Below, piece after piece: positions 33,145 to 41,006 of a stretch of DNA of 51,613 nt. The stretch is from a virus. A program made the translations under genes and the position numbers. The stretch is taken from IMG/VR virus record IMGVR_UViG_3300027763_000078, positions 1-51,613 of that record; one strand, written 5' to 3'. Positions within the stretch are counted from its first letter, which is position 1. Every line of letters begins with the position of its first letter. Below the pieces are notes generated by a model, which did no database searches, was not told where the DNA came from, and worked only from the letters and a program-made list of their open reading frames with translations.

Positions 33145-34014
33145 ATGAATTTAAAAGACATCTCATTAGAGATAAACGATTTATTAGAAAAGAGAAGACA
33201 AGAATTAGAATTAACATTCATAGAAGAAGAACACATTTACTATATGAAAGATGTTGATGGTGAAATTAAAAAGAACTTTCCATCCGTATCTAAAGTAGTT
33301 AAGAAATTTCACAAACCATTTGATGCTGATGGTATGGCACTTAAAATGGCAAAAGGAGACCCTGAAGGACAATCACAATTACTTGCCGAATGGAAAGAGG
33401 CTGGCGACTTATCAACCAATATGGGAAGTAGAGTTCACTTTGAATTGGAGAAAGATTTAATTGGTCGTTTTGGTAATTACAAAGAAGTTAGACAACCGAT
33501 ATTTGAGATTAATGAAGAACAACAACGCAAAAGTGATGCAATGATTAAAGCGGGAAAAGATTTTCTTGATTTAATGTTAGAACGAGGAGGGGTATTATTA
33601 GATACAGAAATTGTATTAGGTGATCCCAAAGAGCAGTATACGGGGCAACCTGATAAGTGTTGGTTAATGCAAAATAAAACAAAAGACGATTTTGGATTTG
33701 TAATAACTGATTGGAAGAGTAATAAGCCAAAGAACTTTGAGGTACATCACTATACTGGTAGATTGTATCCACCATTTAATAATTTTCATGATAATGCCTT
33801 AGGCCATTATTATTTACAATTACCATTATATGGTAGATTGTTACGTAAGATGCTAGAAGGGACAAAATATTCCGATACTAAATTATTAGGTGGAGTTATA
33901 GTTCTTTTAAAAGAAGACGGAACATTTACCGAATATAAAGTTCCACCACAAATAACAAATGCAATCCTTACAATGGATTTATCAAAATATATTTCAAGAT
34001 GGTCAAAAAAATAA
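33145..34014 (+). CDS. PD-(D/E)XK nuclease, RecB/Cas4-like
   Basis: A 289-residue exonuclease-type protein. The RecB-family motifs appear in order: MGSRVHFELE with H98, then a strand with E155 (LLDTEIVLGD), D170 in YTGQPDKC, D189/K191 in VITDWKSNK (the DxK core), and HYYLQLPLYG (about 221-230), the QxxxY helix. Such phage nucleases act in recombination or host DNA breakdown. It follows the primase by one base and overlaps the gp47-like gene by 16 nt, so they are probably translated together and may act on DNA ends with gp46/gp47. There is no [4Fe-4S] cysteine cluster, so it is closer to lambda-exo/RecB-like phage nucleases than to typical Cas4. Confidence 0.78.
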   Translation: MNLKDISLEINDLLEKRRQELELTFIEEEHIYYMKDVDGEIKKNFPSVSKVVKKFHKPFDADGMALKMAKGDPEGQSQLLAEWKEAGDLSTNMGSRVHFELEKDLIGRFGNYKEVRQPIFEINEEQQRKSDAMIKAGKDFLDLMLERGGVLLDTEIVLGDPKEQYTGQPDKCWLMQNKTKDDFGFVITDWKSNKPKNFEVHHYTGRLYPPFNNFHDNALGHYYLQLPLYGRLLRKMLEGTKYSDTKLLGGVIVLLKEDGTFTEYKVPPQITNAILTMDLSKYISRWSKK

Positions 34015-34679
34015 TACACATTGCCGACTTACATATTCGTACAATTCAAATGCATGATTTGTATAGAGAACAATTTGAAACATTAATTGATGAGATACGA
34101 GAACATAATATTGTGTGGCATCAAGAAGGTATTGAATATGAAGAAATTCGTATCGTTGTTGCAGGGGACCTGGCGCATCAGAAAATAAATATTTCTAATG
34201 AACAGTTATTATTAACAAGTTGGTTTTTAAAAGAATTATCGAAATATGGTAAAGTTGTTATCATTCCCGGCAATCACGATTTCTTAGAAAATAATACACA
34301 AAGAATGGATAGTATAACACCTGTGGTTCAATTATTAGACGACCCAACTATTCAATATTACAAAGATAGTGGTGAATATATGGATGATAATATTCAATGG
34401 ATTGTTTATTCATTATATCAACATAACGCACGACCTGAGTTTACTAAAGACGAATCTAAATTAACGATAGGATTATTCCACGGACCTATTCAAGGATTTT
34501 CAACTGATTTAGGTTTTACATTTGACGACGCATATGATAAAAGTAATTTTTATGGTTGTGATATTGTCCTATGTGGAGATATACATAAAAGAGCAATTGT
34601 AAATTTGGAGACGGAAATTGAAGTTGATGAAAAAGATGTTGAAAATTATTTAAAAAATGGTTGGGAAAAAGTGATTTAG
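33999..34679 (+). CDS. gp47/SbcD/Mre11-like nuclease, N-terminal part of a split gene
   Basis: The N-terminal 200 residues of the phage Mre11-type nuclease that works with gp46/SbcC (38673) in recombination-dependent replication. All metallophosphoesterase motifs are here: D10/H12 in IADLHIRT, D57 in VVAGDLAH, N92/H93 in PGNHDF, H161 in LFHGPIQG and H196 in CGDIHKRA. A normal gp47 is about 340 residues; this frame stops at 226. The expected continuation GSLIQQNFGE... appears 878 nt later at 35557, beyond an endonuclease gene. The last ~24 residues (EIEVDEKDVENYLKNGWEKV) do not look like Mre11. They resemble the short YLxxGWxxGR module found beside NUMOD/HNH endonucleases, so they may have arrived with the insertion. 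Whether the two halves reassemble is unknown. Confidence 0.82.
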   Translation: MVKKIIHIADLHIRTIQMHDLYREQFETLIDEIREHNIVWHQEGIEYEEIRIVVAGDLAHQKINISNEQLLLTSWFLKELSKYGKVVIIPGNHDFLENNTQRMDSITPVVQLLDDPTIQYYKDSGEYMDDNIQWIVYSLYQHNARPEFTKDESKLTIGLFHGPIQGFSTDLGFTFDDAYDKSNFYGCDIVLCGDIHKRAIVNLETEIEVDEKDVENYLKNGWEKVI

Positions 34680-34688
34680 TCTTTTTTG

Positions 34689-34708
34689 GTGATATTTATA
34701 TATATCAC
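34689..34708 (+). promoter_or_regulatory. Hairpin enclosing a late-promoter-like motif, upstream of the homing endonuclease
   Basis: GTGATAT (34689-34695) pairs with ATATCAC (34702-34708) around a 6-nt loop; the TATTTATA motif (34693-34700) lies inside it. The endonuclease ATG is 15 nt downstream. In T4 intron endonuclease genes, a hairpin over the initiation region blocks translation from early read-through RNA, and an embedded late promoter gives a hairpin-free late message; this arrangement has the same form. Confidence 0.55.
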
Positions 34709-34723
34709 TAAAATATTATAAAT

Positions 34724-35578
34724 ATGGAAAAAAATTGTGAAAGATGTGGAAATAAATTTAATGGAAAAAAAAATCAAAAATTTTGTTCTAAAAAATGTAT
34801 TCACGTAAAAATTGAACAAATAGTAAAGGTGTGTGAATTAGATGAATGTGATAATACATTTTTAATTTATCCAAATGCTAAAATACCAAAAAGATTATGT
34901 TCAAGAAAATGTCAAGTTAAATGGCAAAAAATAAATATGGTGGGTGAAAGTAATCCAAATTATGGAAATAGGAAACCTGGTATGTTTAAACATACCGAAG
35001 AAACTAAAAAAATATTAAAAGAAAAAATTAAAGAAAGTTGGAAAAAAGAAAGTAGAATAAAAAAACATTTAGATTTTTTTGAAAGACATAGACTTGAAGA
35101 TGGATCAATGGATTGGCATACAAATGAATTTAGGGAAAAAATTAGTAAATCAAATATAAAAAGGTTAGAAAATAATGAAACATCTTTTGCGTATAAAAAT
35201 TGCACAAAAGGTTTTTTATTAAATACAAAAACAAATAATGAGGAGTTCTATCATTCGTCTTGGGAAATGAATAAGATGATAGAATTAAATGAAAATAAAG
35301 ATGTATTTTTTTGGACGAAAAAACATGGAATACAAATAAAATATAATCATAAAAATTTAAATAAAATTTATTTACCCGATTTTTATGTTGAATATATTAA
35401 CGGAGTTAAAAAAATAGAAGAAATAAAAGGATATGTCGAAGATGAAGAGCAATTAAAGTTAAAAATAATTGCAGTTAAAGAATATTGTAAAATCAATAAT
35501 ATACAATTTGTTATTGATTATGTTGAAAATAAAGAAAAATATAAACATTTAATAGAATGGGAAAAAAAATTAAATTAG
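34724..35578 (+). CDS. Homing endonuclease: zinc fingers, NUMOD3, PD-(D/E)XK domain
   Basis: A 284-residue mobile endonuclease. Two N-terminal zinc fingers: C5/C8/C21/C25 (CERC, CSKKC) and C37/C42/C59/C63. A NUMOD3 DNA-binding motif follows at about 77-108 (NPNYGNRKPGMFKHTEETKK), a module typical of homing endonucleases. The catalytic part looks like a TnsA/Vsr-type PD-(D/E)XK fold rather than GIY-YIG or HNH: E181 in SSWE, D219 in LPDFYVEY and E233/K235 in EEIKGY. The gene sits inside the gp47 gene, preceded by a hairpin with a late-promoter-like motif, and its last 22 nt overlap the start of the gp47 C-terminal fragment. It is very A/T-rich with many lysines. It probably cuts uninterrupted gp47 alleles and spreads itself by repair. 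Confidence 0.75.
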   Translation: MEKNCERCGNKFNGKKNQKFCSKKCIHVKIEQIVKVCELDECDNTFLIYPNAKIPKRLCSRKCQVKWQKINMVGESNPNYGNRKPGMFKHTEETKKILKEKIKESWKKESRIKKHLDFFERHRLEDGSMDWHTNEFREKISKSNIKRLENNETSFAYKNCTKGFLLNTKTNNEEFYHSSWEMNKMIELNENKDVFFWTKKHGIQIKYNHKNLNKIYLPDFYVEYINGVKKIEEIKGYVEDEEQLKLKIIAVKEYCKINNIQFVIDYVENKEKYKHLIEWEKKLN

Positions 35579-35787
35579 TAAAAAAAATACCAATAATACA
35601 AATTGGTAGCCTCATTCAACAAAACTTTGGTGAGACAGTTAAACATCATGGGTATGGTATTTATGATGTGGAAACAAATGAATATACATTTCATGATTTG
35701 GATAACGAACAGCCGTTTCTTCATTTCTCAATAAACGATATAAAAGACATTGAAGATGGAAAAGAAACACACGTTAATCTTGGATAA
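35557..35787 (+). CDS. gp47/SbcD/Mre11-like nuclease, C-terminal part of a split gene
   Basis: A 76-residue frame that is the missing end of the gp47-like protein: IPIIQIGSLIQQNFGETVKH (GSLIQQNFGE is the hallmark immediately after the GDIHKR motif in SbcD/gp47), followed by GYGIYDVETNEYTFHDLDNE. The ATG at 35557 lies inside the last codons of the endonuclease gene, so translation is probably coupled to it. The first residues (MGKKIKLV) derive partly from the overlap. If both pieces are made, they could associate into a two-chain Mre11-like nuclease, as described for the MobE-split NrdA of Aeromonas phage Aeh1. Otherwise gp47 would be inactive. The 3' end overlaps the next gene by 32 nt. Confidence 0.75.
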   Translation: MGKKIKLVKKIPIIQIGSLIQQNFGETVKHHGYGIYDVETNEYTFHDLDNEQPFLHFSINDIKDIEDGKETHVNLG

Positions 35788-36295
35788 GGAGTTCACTCAA
35801 TTTTGTGAATTAAATAATATAACAGATATTGATAAACAAGCTCAAGAAACCTTTAATAGAGGATTTTCTTTATTAAAATACGGTGAGATACCAAATGGTA
35901 ATAAAATTAGAGAAATCGTTGAAGTACCCAAAGAGACAATCAAAGAAGTTATTGTTGAAAAGATAGTTGAACGTATTGTTGAGGTTCCCGTTGAAGTCAT
36001 TAGGGAAGTAATTAAAGAAATAACAATAGAGGTACCTGTGGAGGTCATTAAAGAGGTCATCGTTGAAAAGAAAGGTAAGAGTAAAACCGTAACTAAAGAG
36101 GTGATTAAAGAGGTTCCGGTTGAGAAAATTGTGGAAGTTGTTAGGGAGGTGCTTAACAATGATGAGATAGATAGATTAATGAAAGAGAATGAAAAACTTA
36201 AGACAGATTTAGATAACATTACAAATTCACTATCCAAGTTAGGGAAGGGTAGATTAATGAAGAATAGTAATATGAATTCATTATACGACGAATAA
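35756..36295 (+). CDS. Repetitive VEVPVEVIKEV coiled protein
   Basis: A 179-residue protein (ATG 35756; the in-frame TTG at 35750 lies within the previous gene and is less likely). Residues ~1-55 are a small folded region (LDKEFTQFCELNNITDIDKQ). Residues ~56-130 are repeats of the form EVPVEVIKEVIVEK / KEIVEVPKE with strict hydrophobic-charged alternation, ending in a coiled coil with LMKENEKLKTDLDN. Such EVPVE(V/K)IKEV repeats recur between replication genes of large phages and are thought to be extended or fibrous; their function is unknown. It overlaps the gp47 C-terminal fragment by 32 nt, so it belongs to the recombination operon. It could be a structural spacer or a scaffold for the gp46/gp47 complex, but this is a guess. 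Confidence 0.6.
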   Translation: MEKKHTLILDKEFTQFCELNNITDIDKQAQETFNRGFSLLKYGEIPNGNKIREIVEVPKETIKEVIVEKIVERIVEVPVEVIREVIKEITIEVPVEVIKEVIVEKKGKSKTVTKEVIKEVPVEKIVEVVREVLNNDEIDRLMKENEKLKTDLDNITNSLSKLGKGRLMKNSNMNSLYDE

Positions 36296-37365: not shown

Positions 37366-38673
37366 ATGAGTGAAAAAATATTGACGGAAGAAGAAATAAA
37401 CAAATTAAATAAAGATAAATACGGACAGTTCTTTTCAAAGAATCCTGTAATAAGGAACGTAATACAATCTCTCATCTCAAACAAAGGTACAATTATGGAA
37501 CCTTCAGTTGGGGAAGGAGATTTAATTTTTGGGTTAGAGAGTAAAGAACCTGTCTTAATAGACTTTAAACCTAAGGTTACGGAAATCAATAGTATTCCCG
37601 TAATTGAAATGGACTTCTTTAGTTATCCAGTAGAAAATAAATTTAACACAATTATTGGTAACCCACCATTTGTAAAATATAAATTTCTTGACGATAGTGT
37701 TGTAGAAAATATAAAACACTATGAATTTAATAAAAAGACTAATCCAAATGGATATAACAAGAAATCAAATCTATATTATTTTTTTATTCATAAGTGTATT
37801 GAACAATTAGAAGATAATGGAGAATTAATTTTTATTACACCAAAAGAGTTCATGTATAATGTGGGAGCGATTACTTTGAGAAATTTCATGTTTCAAAATG
37901 GTACAATAACTCATTTTATAGATTGCGGAGAGAAAAAGTTATTTACTGATGCATCTGTACCATCTCTTTGTATCTTTAGATTTCAAAAGGGTACATTCTT
38001 AAGAGAAACTAAATTTTGGGAAACAATCGAATCATATGTAAATAAGGATGAATGTGTTATTAAACCAATGAAGATATCAAATGACCAATTTTGTTTTTGT
38101 GATGAAGACGATACTAACACACTATCAGATTTTTTTGATGTTAAAGTAGGTGTAGTATCAGGATTAGATGGTTTCTATTCAACTGATAGGGTAGAAGATG
38201 GTGTTTATATACATAAATTTAGAACTAATAGTGGTTATCAGAATTATTATTTTTTTGACCAAATAAATGATATTAATTTAGTACCGGAGGATATTAGATT
38301 GTTATTCTTATTAAATAAGGATAAATTAAAAAATAGAAAAATTAAAAAATATACGGATAATGATTGGTGGAAATATGGTGCAGTTAGAAACTTAGAAAAT
38401 ATGTTAAGTGACAAAAATAGAATCTATGTCGCACCAAAAACAAGATTAGCAAATCCATTTTTTATGGGACAATCAAATGAACTTTACTCTGGTTCGTTGT
38501 TGGGTATATTTCCTAAAAAAGATAATATTGATTTGGAAAAATCTATTATGTTTTTTAATTCTGATATTTTTAAAAACAGATTAAAACAATTTTTTATAAT
38601 GATTGAAGATAAATTTAATTTTACACCTTCAGTACTTGGAAAAATACCACTAAATTTAAACGAAATAATTTAA
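37366..38673 (+). CDS. Orphan N6-adenine DNA methyltransferase
   Basis: A 435-residue class I methyltransferase that would methylate adenine N6 in DNA. Motif X KYGQFFS (about 18-24) is the FxxGQ(Y/F)FTP-like start of type II/Eco57I-type enzymes; motif I is MEPSVGEGDL (about 44-53, binding S-adenosylmethionine), and motif IV is GNPPFVKYK with N99-P-P-F as catalytic residues. The C-terminal ~200 residues fit a target-recognition domain like that of TaqI (KTRLANPFFMGQSNELYSGS region). No restriction partner is seen, so it probably protects phage DNA or marks it for control. It is set between gp47 and gp46 genes, whose order is otherwise T4-like, and ends in a 1-nt overlap with gp46. Confidence 0.78.
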   Translation: MSEKILTEEEINKLNKDKYGQFFSKNPVIRNVIQSLISNKGTIMEPSVGEGDLIFGLESKEPVLIDFKPKVTEINSIPVIEMDFFSYPVENKFNTIIGNPPFVKYKFLDDSVVENIKHYEFNKKTNPNGYNKKSNLYYFFIHKCIEQLEDNGELIFITPKEFMYNVGAITLRNFMFQNGTITHFIDCGEKKLFTDASVPSLCIFRFQKGTFLRETKFWETIESYVNKDECVIKPMKISNDQFCFCDEDDTNTLSDFFDVKVGVVSGLDGFYSTDRVEDGVYIHKFRTNSGYQNYYFFDQINDINLVPEDIRLLFLLNKDKLKNRKIKKYTDNDWWKYGAVRNLENMLSDKNRIYVAPKTRLANPFFMGQSNELYSGSLLGIFPKKDNIDLEKSIMFFNSDIFKNRLKQFFIMIEDKFNFTPSVLGKIPLNLNEII

Positions 38674-41006
38674 TGAATCCGTTTATAAAAGTAACGTGGG
38701 AAGATGTCCCCGAAAATTTCACCCCTGAAAAAATCAGAAGAGTAAAATCTTATTTTGAGAAAAAATATAATGCTAAGACAGTTCAAGTAATCACTAAAAC
38801 ATTAACGAGTGTTAATCAAACACGATTAGAATCTTTGGAAGCGTCAGATAATATCTTAGACCACCAATATCAAAAGAAACTAATGAAAGATTTCATTAAG
38901 GATAATGAAATTGATATTAAATGGGAATTGGTTGATAGGTTAGATAATAAAGTTAATATTCAAATAGATAAATTAAATGAAAACAAAGTTAGATATAATA
39001 AATGGTATATTAGGAAAGTGGAGTTTTCTAATTTTTTATCATTCGGAGATAATAACGTTATTGATTTTACTGGGTTGGACGGTATTACGGTAATTGAATC
39101 CACACCAAAGAACTTCGGCGGTAAATCTACATCTTCAGTAGATCTTTTAATGTTCTTATTTTTTAATACAACAACAAAGACAAAAACTAACGGTGAAATC
39201 TTTAATAGATTTACCGATAAGAATGATGTAAGTGTTCGTGGTGAAATCACTATTGATGGTGATGACTACGTCATTGAAAGAAAGACATCTCGTAAGATGG
39301 GTAAGTCTGGTGAGTACACCGTTAAAAATGAATTAGAGTTTTATAAAAAAACTGAAGATGGAGAAATCGTAAATTTATCGGGTGAACAAAGAAGAGAAAC
39401 GGAAGCATTTATATCTTCAGCAATTGGAACAGAAGAAGATTTCTTATCAACCATATTAACAACTGGTTATAATTTAGAAGAACTGATTGAATCCAAACCA
39501 ACCGCTCGTGGACAAATCTTAACAAAGTTCATGGGGTTGGAAAACTTAAAAATTAAAGAAGAACTTGCAAAAGAAATTTATAACGATTGGGGTAAGAAAT
39601 TGGTATCCAACACATATAACAAAGTTAGTTTAGAATCTGATAATGAAACATACAAAGAAAGTATTACCAATTCAGAAAATGAGATTGTAAAATTAACAAA
39701 AGAATTAGGTAAGTTTGAAAAGGATTTAGACAAGTTAGAAAAGAAAAGAGATGATGTATTTTTAAAAAGAAATAATGATGTTGATAAAGAATTACTGAAT
39801 ACAAATCCAACTTTATTACAAAGAGAAGTTACTTTTTTATTAACTCAAAAAAATGTAAGTCAAACAAACGCCGACGGAGTTAGTGTTGTTGAACCATCAC
39901 AATTCTATGATGAAGATCAACACAAAGAGTTAAAAGGTGAAATGGCAAATCTTCAAGGAATTGATGTTGTATCCAAATATGAAAAAACTCAAAGAGAAAA
40001 ATTAATTAAACAATTTGAAGAAGGAACAGTTTGTCCTACTTGTAATCGTGCGTTAGATGAAGTAGATCATACGGACGAGATTGAAAAGATTAAAAAAGAA
40101 ATTGAAGATATCATTAAGGAGATGGAATTAAATCAAAATCAATTTGATTTATTAAAAGAACAATCTGAAGGATTTGATAAATTAAAAACCGAATTTGAAG
40201 CTTACGAAAGAAACAAACTTCGTAAGGAAAGATATCAATTAGAGATTGAACAAAAACAATTGGAGATTGATAGTAAACAAAAAAGATTAGATAATTACGA
40301 AAGTAATAAAAAGAAACTTGAGGATAACCAAAAGATTGATGCTGAAGTGATTGCACTTAAAACTAAAATAGAAACAGCAAACGGAGATATTAGACAGACA
40401 AACACTAACATTGAAAAACATACCAATAACATTTCAAATATGAATGGTAAGGTTGGTATCAATGAGGAGTTAATTAAAAAGATTACGGCGGAGGAAGAAT
40501 TAGCTGCCGTGTTTAAAATATACTTAACCGTTTATGGTAAAAACGGAATATCTAAAATCATTCTTAAAAATATGATTCCATTAATCAATCAGGAATTGTA
40601 TCGTTTGTTAGTTGATAGTTGTCATTTCATTTTAGAGATGAATATAAACGATAAGAACGAGGTTGAATTTATTATGATAGATACTGAAACTCGTATTGTT
40701 AAGCCTCTTAATGCGGGGTCTGGTTATGAAAGAACCATATCCTCATTGGCACTTCGTAGTGTATTAACTAAAATATCATCATTACCTAAACCTAACATCG
40801 TAGTTATGGACGAGGTGTTTGGTAAGATTGCTGACGAGAACTTGGAAATGGTCGGTGAGTTCTTTAAAAAGATTAAAAATTATTTTGACCATATACTTGT
40901 CATATCACACAATTCTTTAATACGTAATTGGTCTGATAATATCGTTATGATTAAGAAAGAAGAAAATGTTTCATCCATAGATTTTATCACAACAAAAATT
41001 TCTTAG
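38673..41006 (+). CDS. gp46/SbcC/Rad50-like recombination ATPase
   Basis: A 777-residue SMC-like ATPase that partners gp47 (33999/35557) in double-strand break processing and recombination-dependent replication. After a ~110-residue N-terminal extension unlike standard gp46 (MNPFIKVTWEDVPENFTPEK onward), the ATPase begins at YIRKVEFSNFLSFG. Walker A is the variant STPKNFGGKST (143-153), with the signature LNAGSGYERTISSLALR and Walker B IVVMDEVFGKI at the C-terminus. The centre is a long coiled coil with a CPTC zinc hook near residues 453-456. The overlap with the methyltransferase stop is one base. The N-terminal extension may be a DNA- or partner-binding domain added in this phage lineage. 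The family assignment is confident. Confidence 0.85.
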   Translation: MNPFIKVTWEDVPENFTPEKIRRVKSYFEKKYNAKTVQVITKTLTSVNQTRLESLEASDNILDHQYQKKLMKDFIKDNEIDIKWELVDRLDNKVNIQIDKLNENKVRYNKWYIRKVEFSNFLSFGDNNVIDFTGLDGITVIESTPKNFGGKSTSSVDLLMFLFFNTTTKTKTNGEIFNRFTDKNDVSVRGEITIDGDDYVIERKTSRKMGKSGEYTVKNELEFYKKTEDGEIVNLSGEQRRETEAFISSAIGTEEDFLSTILTTGYNLEELIESKPTARGQILTKFMGLENLKIKEELAKEIYNDWGKKLVSNTYNKVSLESDNETYKESITNSENEIVKLTKELGKFEKDLDKLEKKRDDVFLKRNNDVDKELLNTNPTLLQREVTFLLTQKNVSQTNADGVSVVEPSQFYDEDQHKELKGEMANLQGIDVVSKYEKTQREKLIKQFEEGTVCPTCNRALDEVDHTDEIEKIKKEIEDIIKEMELNQNQFDLLKEQSEGFDKLKTEFEAYERNKLRKERYQLEIEQKQLEIDSKQKRLDNYESNKKKLEDNQKIDAEVIALKTKIETANGDIRQTNTNIEKHTNNISNMNGKVGINEELIKKITAEEELAAVFKIYLTVYGKNGISKIILKNMIPLINQELYRLLVDSCHFILEMNINDKNEVEFIMIDTETRIVKPLNAGSGYERTISSLALRSVLTKISSLPKPNIVVMDEVFGKIADENLEMVGEFFKKIKNYFDHILVISHNSLIRNWSDNIVMIKKEENVSSIDFITTKIS

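Follow-up and report, generated by a model that had tools for sequence, protein, structure and literature searches.

The DNA stretch analysed here is a 51,613-nucleotide virus record (IMGVR_UViG_3300027763_000078; the whole of it is termed the window), in which the gene of the recombination nuclease gp47, an Mre11-type protein of the SbcD kind, lies in two parts on either side of an endonuclease gene. This arrangement raises the question of whether the nuclease has been destroyed or persists as two chains, and, if it persists, of what holds the chains together. Judging from the sequence, the gp47/SbcD gene is truly split by the endonuclease gene, with both pieces open and SbcD-homologous; the sequence-only reading of this DNA had proposed the same split with the same open reading frame (ORF) positions, and comparison with intact relatives bears it out. 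We consider it probable that a mobile homing cassette has entered the gp47 gene, and that one hairpin has given way to its end pieces, which would hold the two chains together.

All parts of the locus lie on the plus strand. The N-terminal chain (N-chain; 33999-34679, 226 aa) includes all of the metal motifs and ends in a 27-residue tail; it matches Metallophos PF00149 (E 4.1e-12) and the SbcD-like phrog_100 (E 1.5e-15, profile positions 27-220). The C-terminal chain (C-chain; 35557-35787, 76 aa) matches phrog_100 farther along the profile (E 2.4e-4, positions 227-281), and the fragment at 35557, whose homology to SbcD had been named as a point on which the split-gene reading could fail, is thus an SbcD piece. 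In a 51-row alignment, the metal-motif residues D10, H12, G56-D57, N92-H93-D94, H161 and G193-D194-I195-H196 are invariant and all fall within the N-chain, in agreement with the earlier claim that this frame carries every catalytic Mre11 motif. Between the two chains lies the endonuclease gene (34724-35578, 284 aa), with a zinc-ribbon-like front and a TnsA-like/PD-(D/E)XK-like nuclease part. The parts had been described as overlapping or abutting, which holds for the endonuclease and C-chain frames (22-nt overlap) but not for the N-chain and endonuclease frames, which do not overlap and are set apart by a 44-nt spacer. Based on protein comparison, the insert ends at about 34596 and 35604. Because identical DNA is present in L003 (0 mismatches over 8606 nt, all three ORFs covered) and in L002 (0 mismatches over 5017 nt, ending within the endonuclease gene), the split cannot be ascribed to misassembly of a single record.

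In our first scan for relatives, of which the best 80 of 376 were kept, the genes were unbroken and 264-274 aa long except in L002 and L003, which belong to the window's phage, and in L012 and L058, which are cut by contig ends; the closest relatives of the window carry an intact gp47, mostly of 272 aa. The 317 loci, some of which overlap or share a contig, comprise 265 with intact gp47, 18 split, 32 without the N-part and 2 others (L258, intact by eye, and L272, unrelated). At the site of the split, intact genes read CGDIHKR-QQFTLPNGGHAIMV-GSLIQQNFGE or a variant of it. Alignment with intact gp47, which the sequence-only reading had named as the way to find the break, places it in the turn of a hairpin: the pieces of the window's phage (L003 record) match residues 1-203 and 209-272 of the intact protein of L005, only 5 of whose residues are found in neither piece. 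Read by eye, the same alignment shows 13 residues of L005 (RFTLPNGGHAIMV) substituted by cassette-borne ones. The AlphaFold2 model of the L005 protein (mean predicted local distance difference test score, pLDDT, 82.8) resembles Mre11 and SbcD structures (best E 5.5e-9) and has the Mre11 fold, with a template modelling (TM) score by query of 0.61 to Mre11 chains. In this model, strands 199-202 and 208-212 form a hairpin directly after GDIH, the last metal motif, and the break falls in its turn.

The same split recurs in other lineages. A scan for the endonuclease family yielded 13 loci, among which, besides the window's twin, L166, L167 and L168 (mutually identical over 1750 nt) carry gp47 split at the same site. 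A gp47 scan, limited to the best 80 of at least 583 relatives, added L227, whose split was seen on reading its frames. A pattern scan for the start of the C-chain gave 40 loci, namely, 6 short C-chains in four lineages, L304 being new, and 34 unbroken genes. The fifth lineage is LR756508 (L164), a 484-kb uncultured phage in which gp47 is also split at this site; there is an 11-nt overlap between its endonuclease frame and the N-chain stop, and its C frame starts one base past the endonuclease stop. The C-part of gp47 in LR756508 heads one 861-codon frame shared with gp46 (L164 4413-6998), so that the break leaves one nuclease chain and one C-part-ATPase chain. The gp47-gp46 frame is unbroken in Microcystis phage Mel-JY01 (L259) and in LR756501 (L258).

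In a quick-method tree of 62 rows, thinned from 142 distinct N-bodies (285 loci) by dropping rows at least 0.90 like a kept row, each of the five split rows occupies a branch of its own among intact ones; 5 changes are needed, and 5 are forced by the starred branches. Since the window and L166 have intact nearest neighbours, gain of the split by homing is the plainer reading than loss. The gp47 bodies pair the window with L304 (63%) and L166 with L227 (77%), and the endonucleases pair the window with L166 (55%) and L304 with L227 (58%). An intact gp47 elsewhere in the genome had been named as a finding that would speak against a split enzyme; the window holds a single Metallophos match, and no extra full gp47 match was present in the records of L003, L304, L227 and LR756508, the first three of which may be fragments (the 5-8 kb records of L166-L168 stood outside this comparison). 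LR756508 has a second phosphoesterase at 446780, outside its gp47 matches. Scans for further cases gave no matches to the tail pattern in genome contigs, none but L164 itself when the L164 tail was searched against phages by tblastn, and 12 matches with 0 confirmed when relatives of the L164 N-chain were sought among viruses.

A simpler account would be that gp47 is broken: the endonuclease gene would have destroyed it, the phage would do without it or use a host nuclease, and the pieces would be decaying. Remnants of this sort could take the form of a 76-aa C-piece and a chain bearing a new tail, and the activity of the pair is a prediction. Nevertheless, we regard decay as improbable, as neither piece has a stop or a frameshift in any of the five lineages, substitutions in both the tail and the body favour synonymous sites, only about 5 residues are lost, and the C-part in LR756508 heads an open 861-codon frame with gp46.

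The tail of the window's N-chain (IVNLETEIEVDEKDVENYLKNGWEKVI, 34596-34676) is acidic and has a counterpart at this site in each of four other lineages, where the residues after HKRx read IIYTESTIEIDEEFLDEYIKKGWENVI (L166), TLYTESVIEVDDEKVDEYLKKGWDIV (L227), IKYLEREIEIDEKDIDEYLKKGWKRI (L304) and KVSEYEVEEMVVEEDELEKYLNSGWKLDENLDDY (L164); it is not present in intact relatives. These residues, about 26 of which had been taken as foreign-looking, are in fact conserved among the five split lineages. For each of the window, L166, L227 and L304, 0 of 1000 shuffles were as good when compared with the other three tails, and 1 of 5000 shuffles was as good for the L164 tail. The spacing is also even, with 21 residues from HKRx to GW in four lineages. 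The C-chain begins with a basic head (MGKKIKLVKKIPIIQI, 35557-35604), which is kept as MGKIKLKKQIPIIQI, MGKVKLKKKIQLIQV and MGKIKLLKKIPIIQI in L166, L227 and L304, respectively. Comparing the proportions of nonsynonymous (pN) and synonymous (pS) differences, the only measures used here because dS is saturated and some dN/dS values are thus 0.00, we found pN<pS for the tails in all six pairs of four lineages (L164 set aside), with only 13-15 synonymous sites each, and for the heads in five of the six pairs. The net charges in the five lineages are -5, -6, -5, -1 and -10 for the tails and +5, +4, +5, +4 and +1 for the heads, and these opposite charges agree with pairing, a statistically weak agreement. 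The head strand IPIIQI resembles the TPIIQVGS read after the YLDK turn in 12 of the 34 unbroken genes of the C-chain-start scan, unlike the AIMVGS of the window's own kin; such a foreign-looking strand is expected if the flanks move with the cassette. In the lone N-chain model (mean pLDDT 81.5), a helix is drawn at residues 211-220 of the tail. Weak PHROGs matches of the tail to phrog_19578, phrog_1175 and phrog_29625 (E 0.03-0.18) were judged to be chance.

The tail and head could alternatively be kept for the sake of the endonuclease, through translation coupling, its target sequence or the frame overlap, with the chains not docked. In four lineages, the head overlaps the last endonuclease codons by 19-22 nt, enough to conserve part of it, and the tail is disordered when modelled alone. 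These needs would not account for a tail that is kept at the protein level, evenly spaced and clear of the endonuclease overlap, nor for synonymous sites that vary, and we consider this account unlikely.

The endonuclease itself appears to have kept its front and exchanged its nuclease domain. The TnsA-like family PF08722 scores 23.2 bits for the window endonuclease, under the cut-off of 26.5, and 27.2 bits, above it, for the L164 homologue; the L166 homologue has no match at E 0.01. The window endonuclease had been labelled NUMOD3, a label that it does not earn, with no match to PF07460 at E 0.1; in this family, L166 scores 16.8 bits, under the cut-off of 20.4, and L227 scores 25.3, above it. 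The window and L166 endonucleases align over their full length (52%), and those of the window and L164 are homologous across the nuclease part (E 2e-23). The local alignment of the window with L304 covers only window residues 1-109 (36%, E 6e-9), and that of L166 with L227 covers only residues 1-179 (34%, E 3e-17); the cross-group identities of 31-34% come from forced whole-length alignments, local alignment showing that the front parts alone match. The endonucleases of L227 and L304 have DUF559-type matches above the cut-off, a domain that we take to be Vsr-like, and both nuclease types, TnsA-like and DUF559-type, presumably belong to the wide PD-(D/E)XK superfamily. Because only the zinc-ribbon-like front aligns between the groups, these comparisons indicate that the front is retained and that two lineages carry another nuclease domain. 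A genome-contig scan for the endonuclease family gave 318 pattern matches, 0 of them confirmed, and a search of the L304 endonuclease against phages gave no match. Ahead of the endonuclease start, the spacer contains a hairpin of 12 bp with a 6-nt loop (34684-34713; z -2.55, with 3 of 200 shuffles folding as well), and the spacer of L166 behaves similarly (z -2.41).

An insert in a conserved gene may also be an intron, or a segment that ribosomes hop or shift across, yielding one gp47 chain, and the 9-nt repeat TGGGAAAAA found on either side of it might be read as a take-off and a landing site. The repeat had been described as flanking the insert. It is uninformative: the window holds 5 copies of it where 2.26 are expected (7 of 100 shuffles have at least 5), it is imperfect in L166, L227 and L304, and it does not lie at the insert ends of about 34596 and 35604; joining at TGGGAAAAA would, moreover, run into the endonuclease's own stop. 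No Rfam intron was found, either across the window at the gathering score or in the region of the insert at E 5, and the LR756508 frames leave no room for a ribozyme, given the 11-nt overlap and the single base between endonuclease stop and C frame. We therefore hold a single joined chain to be very unlikely. In inteins, the N-intein starts with a Cys, Ser or Thr nucleophile, and the C-intein ends with His-Asn followed by a nucleophile. A miniature split intein made up of the tail and head and ligating the halves is hardly credible, even though a related endonuclease family stands between true-looking split-intein halves in the dUTPase gene of L170-L172, because HKR is followed by A, Q or D, a His-Asn pair ahead of a nucleophile is lacking on the C side, and the two modules total only about 43 residues.

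We return to the homing cassette. As read from the alignments, its observed basis is the break site, the conservation of the tail in five lineages and of the head in four, the domain exchange and the scattered distribution. The cassette would consist of the acidic tail, the hairpin spacer, the endonuclease gene with its exchangeable nuclease domain and the basic head, and it would substitute the turn and strands of one beta-hairpin (the 13 residues of L005, the nearest intact gene type). Both chains would be translated, the spacer hairpin limiting translation of the endonuclease, and the tail would pair with the head as an extended inter-chain beta-hairpin plus a helix, holding the halves together; the resulting two-chain nuclease would be functional and would associate with gp46. 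The endonuclease would cut intact gp47 genes, into which repair would then copy the cassette along with short flanks; the scattered distribution and the foreign flanks agree with such homing into empty alleles. Several observations weigh against this explanation. The changes on the tree do not separate gain from loss, and several of its branches are long; the window (51.6 kb) may be only part of a genome, which leaves room for an intact gp47 outside it. In the lone N-chain model, tail residues 202-226 have pLDDT <50. The L164 head has no significant similarity to the other heads, with 859 of 5000 shuffles scoring equally well, and one head pair, window-L227, has pN>pS. Among 31 other window genes, taken from 44 ORFs, 3 have ends as acidic as -5 and 1 has a start at +5. 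Three tails searched against Pfam, intein models included, gave 0 matches, and the three PHROGs matches of the tail were weak. The spacer hairpin is weak in L227 (z -1.55) and is not in the best fold of L304 (-0.55).

More tentatively, with the odds slightly against it, the tail and head may act as a protein stapler that is portable and does not splice. Such a stapler would be the functional equivalent of a split intein and would home with interchangeable nuclease domains, allowing a parasite to reside within the catalytic region of a recombination nuclease on which homing itself may draw. If the tail and head dock, they would offer short natural peptide pairs usable as connectors. Reportedly, genes fractured by a free-standing endonuclease ORF, with split-intein modules on both new ends, were described by Dassa in 2009. 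The gp47 locus is similar in its endonuclease ORF break and in the extra modules on both new ends, and an endonuclease related to that of the window occurs at the L170-L172 dUTPase locus; it differs in that gp47 has no intein signature, and its modules could only hold the chains without a bond. The fractured-genes paper (Dassa 2009) is cited in the excerpts of PMC10448857.

The excerpts of a review (PMC2988022) describe the Aeh1 nrdA gene split by MobE, T4 gene 60 and a split gene 43, call the assembly of split chains a fascinating open question, and name gp46 and gp47 as possible homing helpers. If gp47 is one, the parasite would divide its own helper without destroying it. The likeness to MobE-split NrdA of Aeromonas phage Aeh1 (cited as Friedrich 2007 and Crona 2011) noted by the sequence-only reading holds in the sense of working alike: an endonuclease gene lies between two parts of an enzyme gene, the Aeh1 halves are reported to form an active enzyme, and an RNA structure is described ahead of mobE (PMC2988022), as a hairpin precedes the window endonuclease. 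The Aeh1 alpha protein consists of two polypeptides, and the title of Crona 2011 attributes interaction domains to the mobile element (PMC3267527). The differences are that here the host gene is gp47/Mre11 and the endonucleases belong to other families, MobE being called HNH in a reference title, and that five lineages share one site, conserved end modules and exchanged nuclease domains, with assembly only inferred. In Aeromonas phage 25, the DNA polymerase gene 43, a replication gene, likewise encodes two chains and adjoins a homing gene, seg43(25), and the chains are reported to co-purify and to be active; that gene and nuclease are different, and the review excerpts mention no recurring end modules (PMC2988022). 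The excerpts of PMC3322345 report interrupted genes without gp47 among them, those of PMC2984593 contained nothing relevant, and no description of a split gp47/SbcD was found in the literature searched. Relative to MobE-split NrdA, what is new is the host gene gp47 and the exchangeable nuclease domains, the gene-in-pieces kind being already known. The reassembly question becomes testable with five lineages that share one split site and conserved ends and among which nuclease domains have been exchanged.

With respect to the surroundings, primase-like and exonuclease-like genes lie upstream of the split gp47, and an uninterrupted gp46/SbcC-like gene, the presumed partner (38673-41006, plus strand; phrog_77, E 9e-48), starts 2.9 kb downstream; it was recognised by its PHROGs match, a PF13476 search of the window giving no gp46. 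The next ORF after gp47 (35750-36295) contains many near-repeats of the EVPVEVIKEV type, and similar ORFs follow gp47 in L166 and L146.

Relatives of the window endonuclease also occur outside gp47. At L172 2813-4706 (also L170 2963-4832 and L171 542-2246), split-intein-like halves around such an endonuclease break a dUTPase gene; the halves have a Cys start and an HLIHNC end, with Pfam dUTPase and Hint/intein matches in L172, the sole one scanned. In Bacillus phage Moonbeam (L165 2707-3468), a relative and the start of an RNaseH gene have 4 nt in common, and distant relatives at L173 3473-4456 and L174 380-1312 adjoin ORFs of unknown function in other phage contigs.

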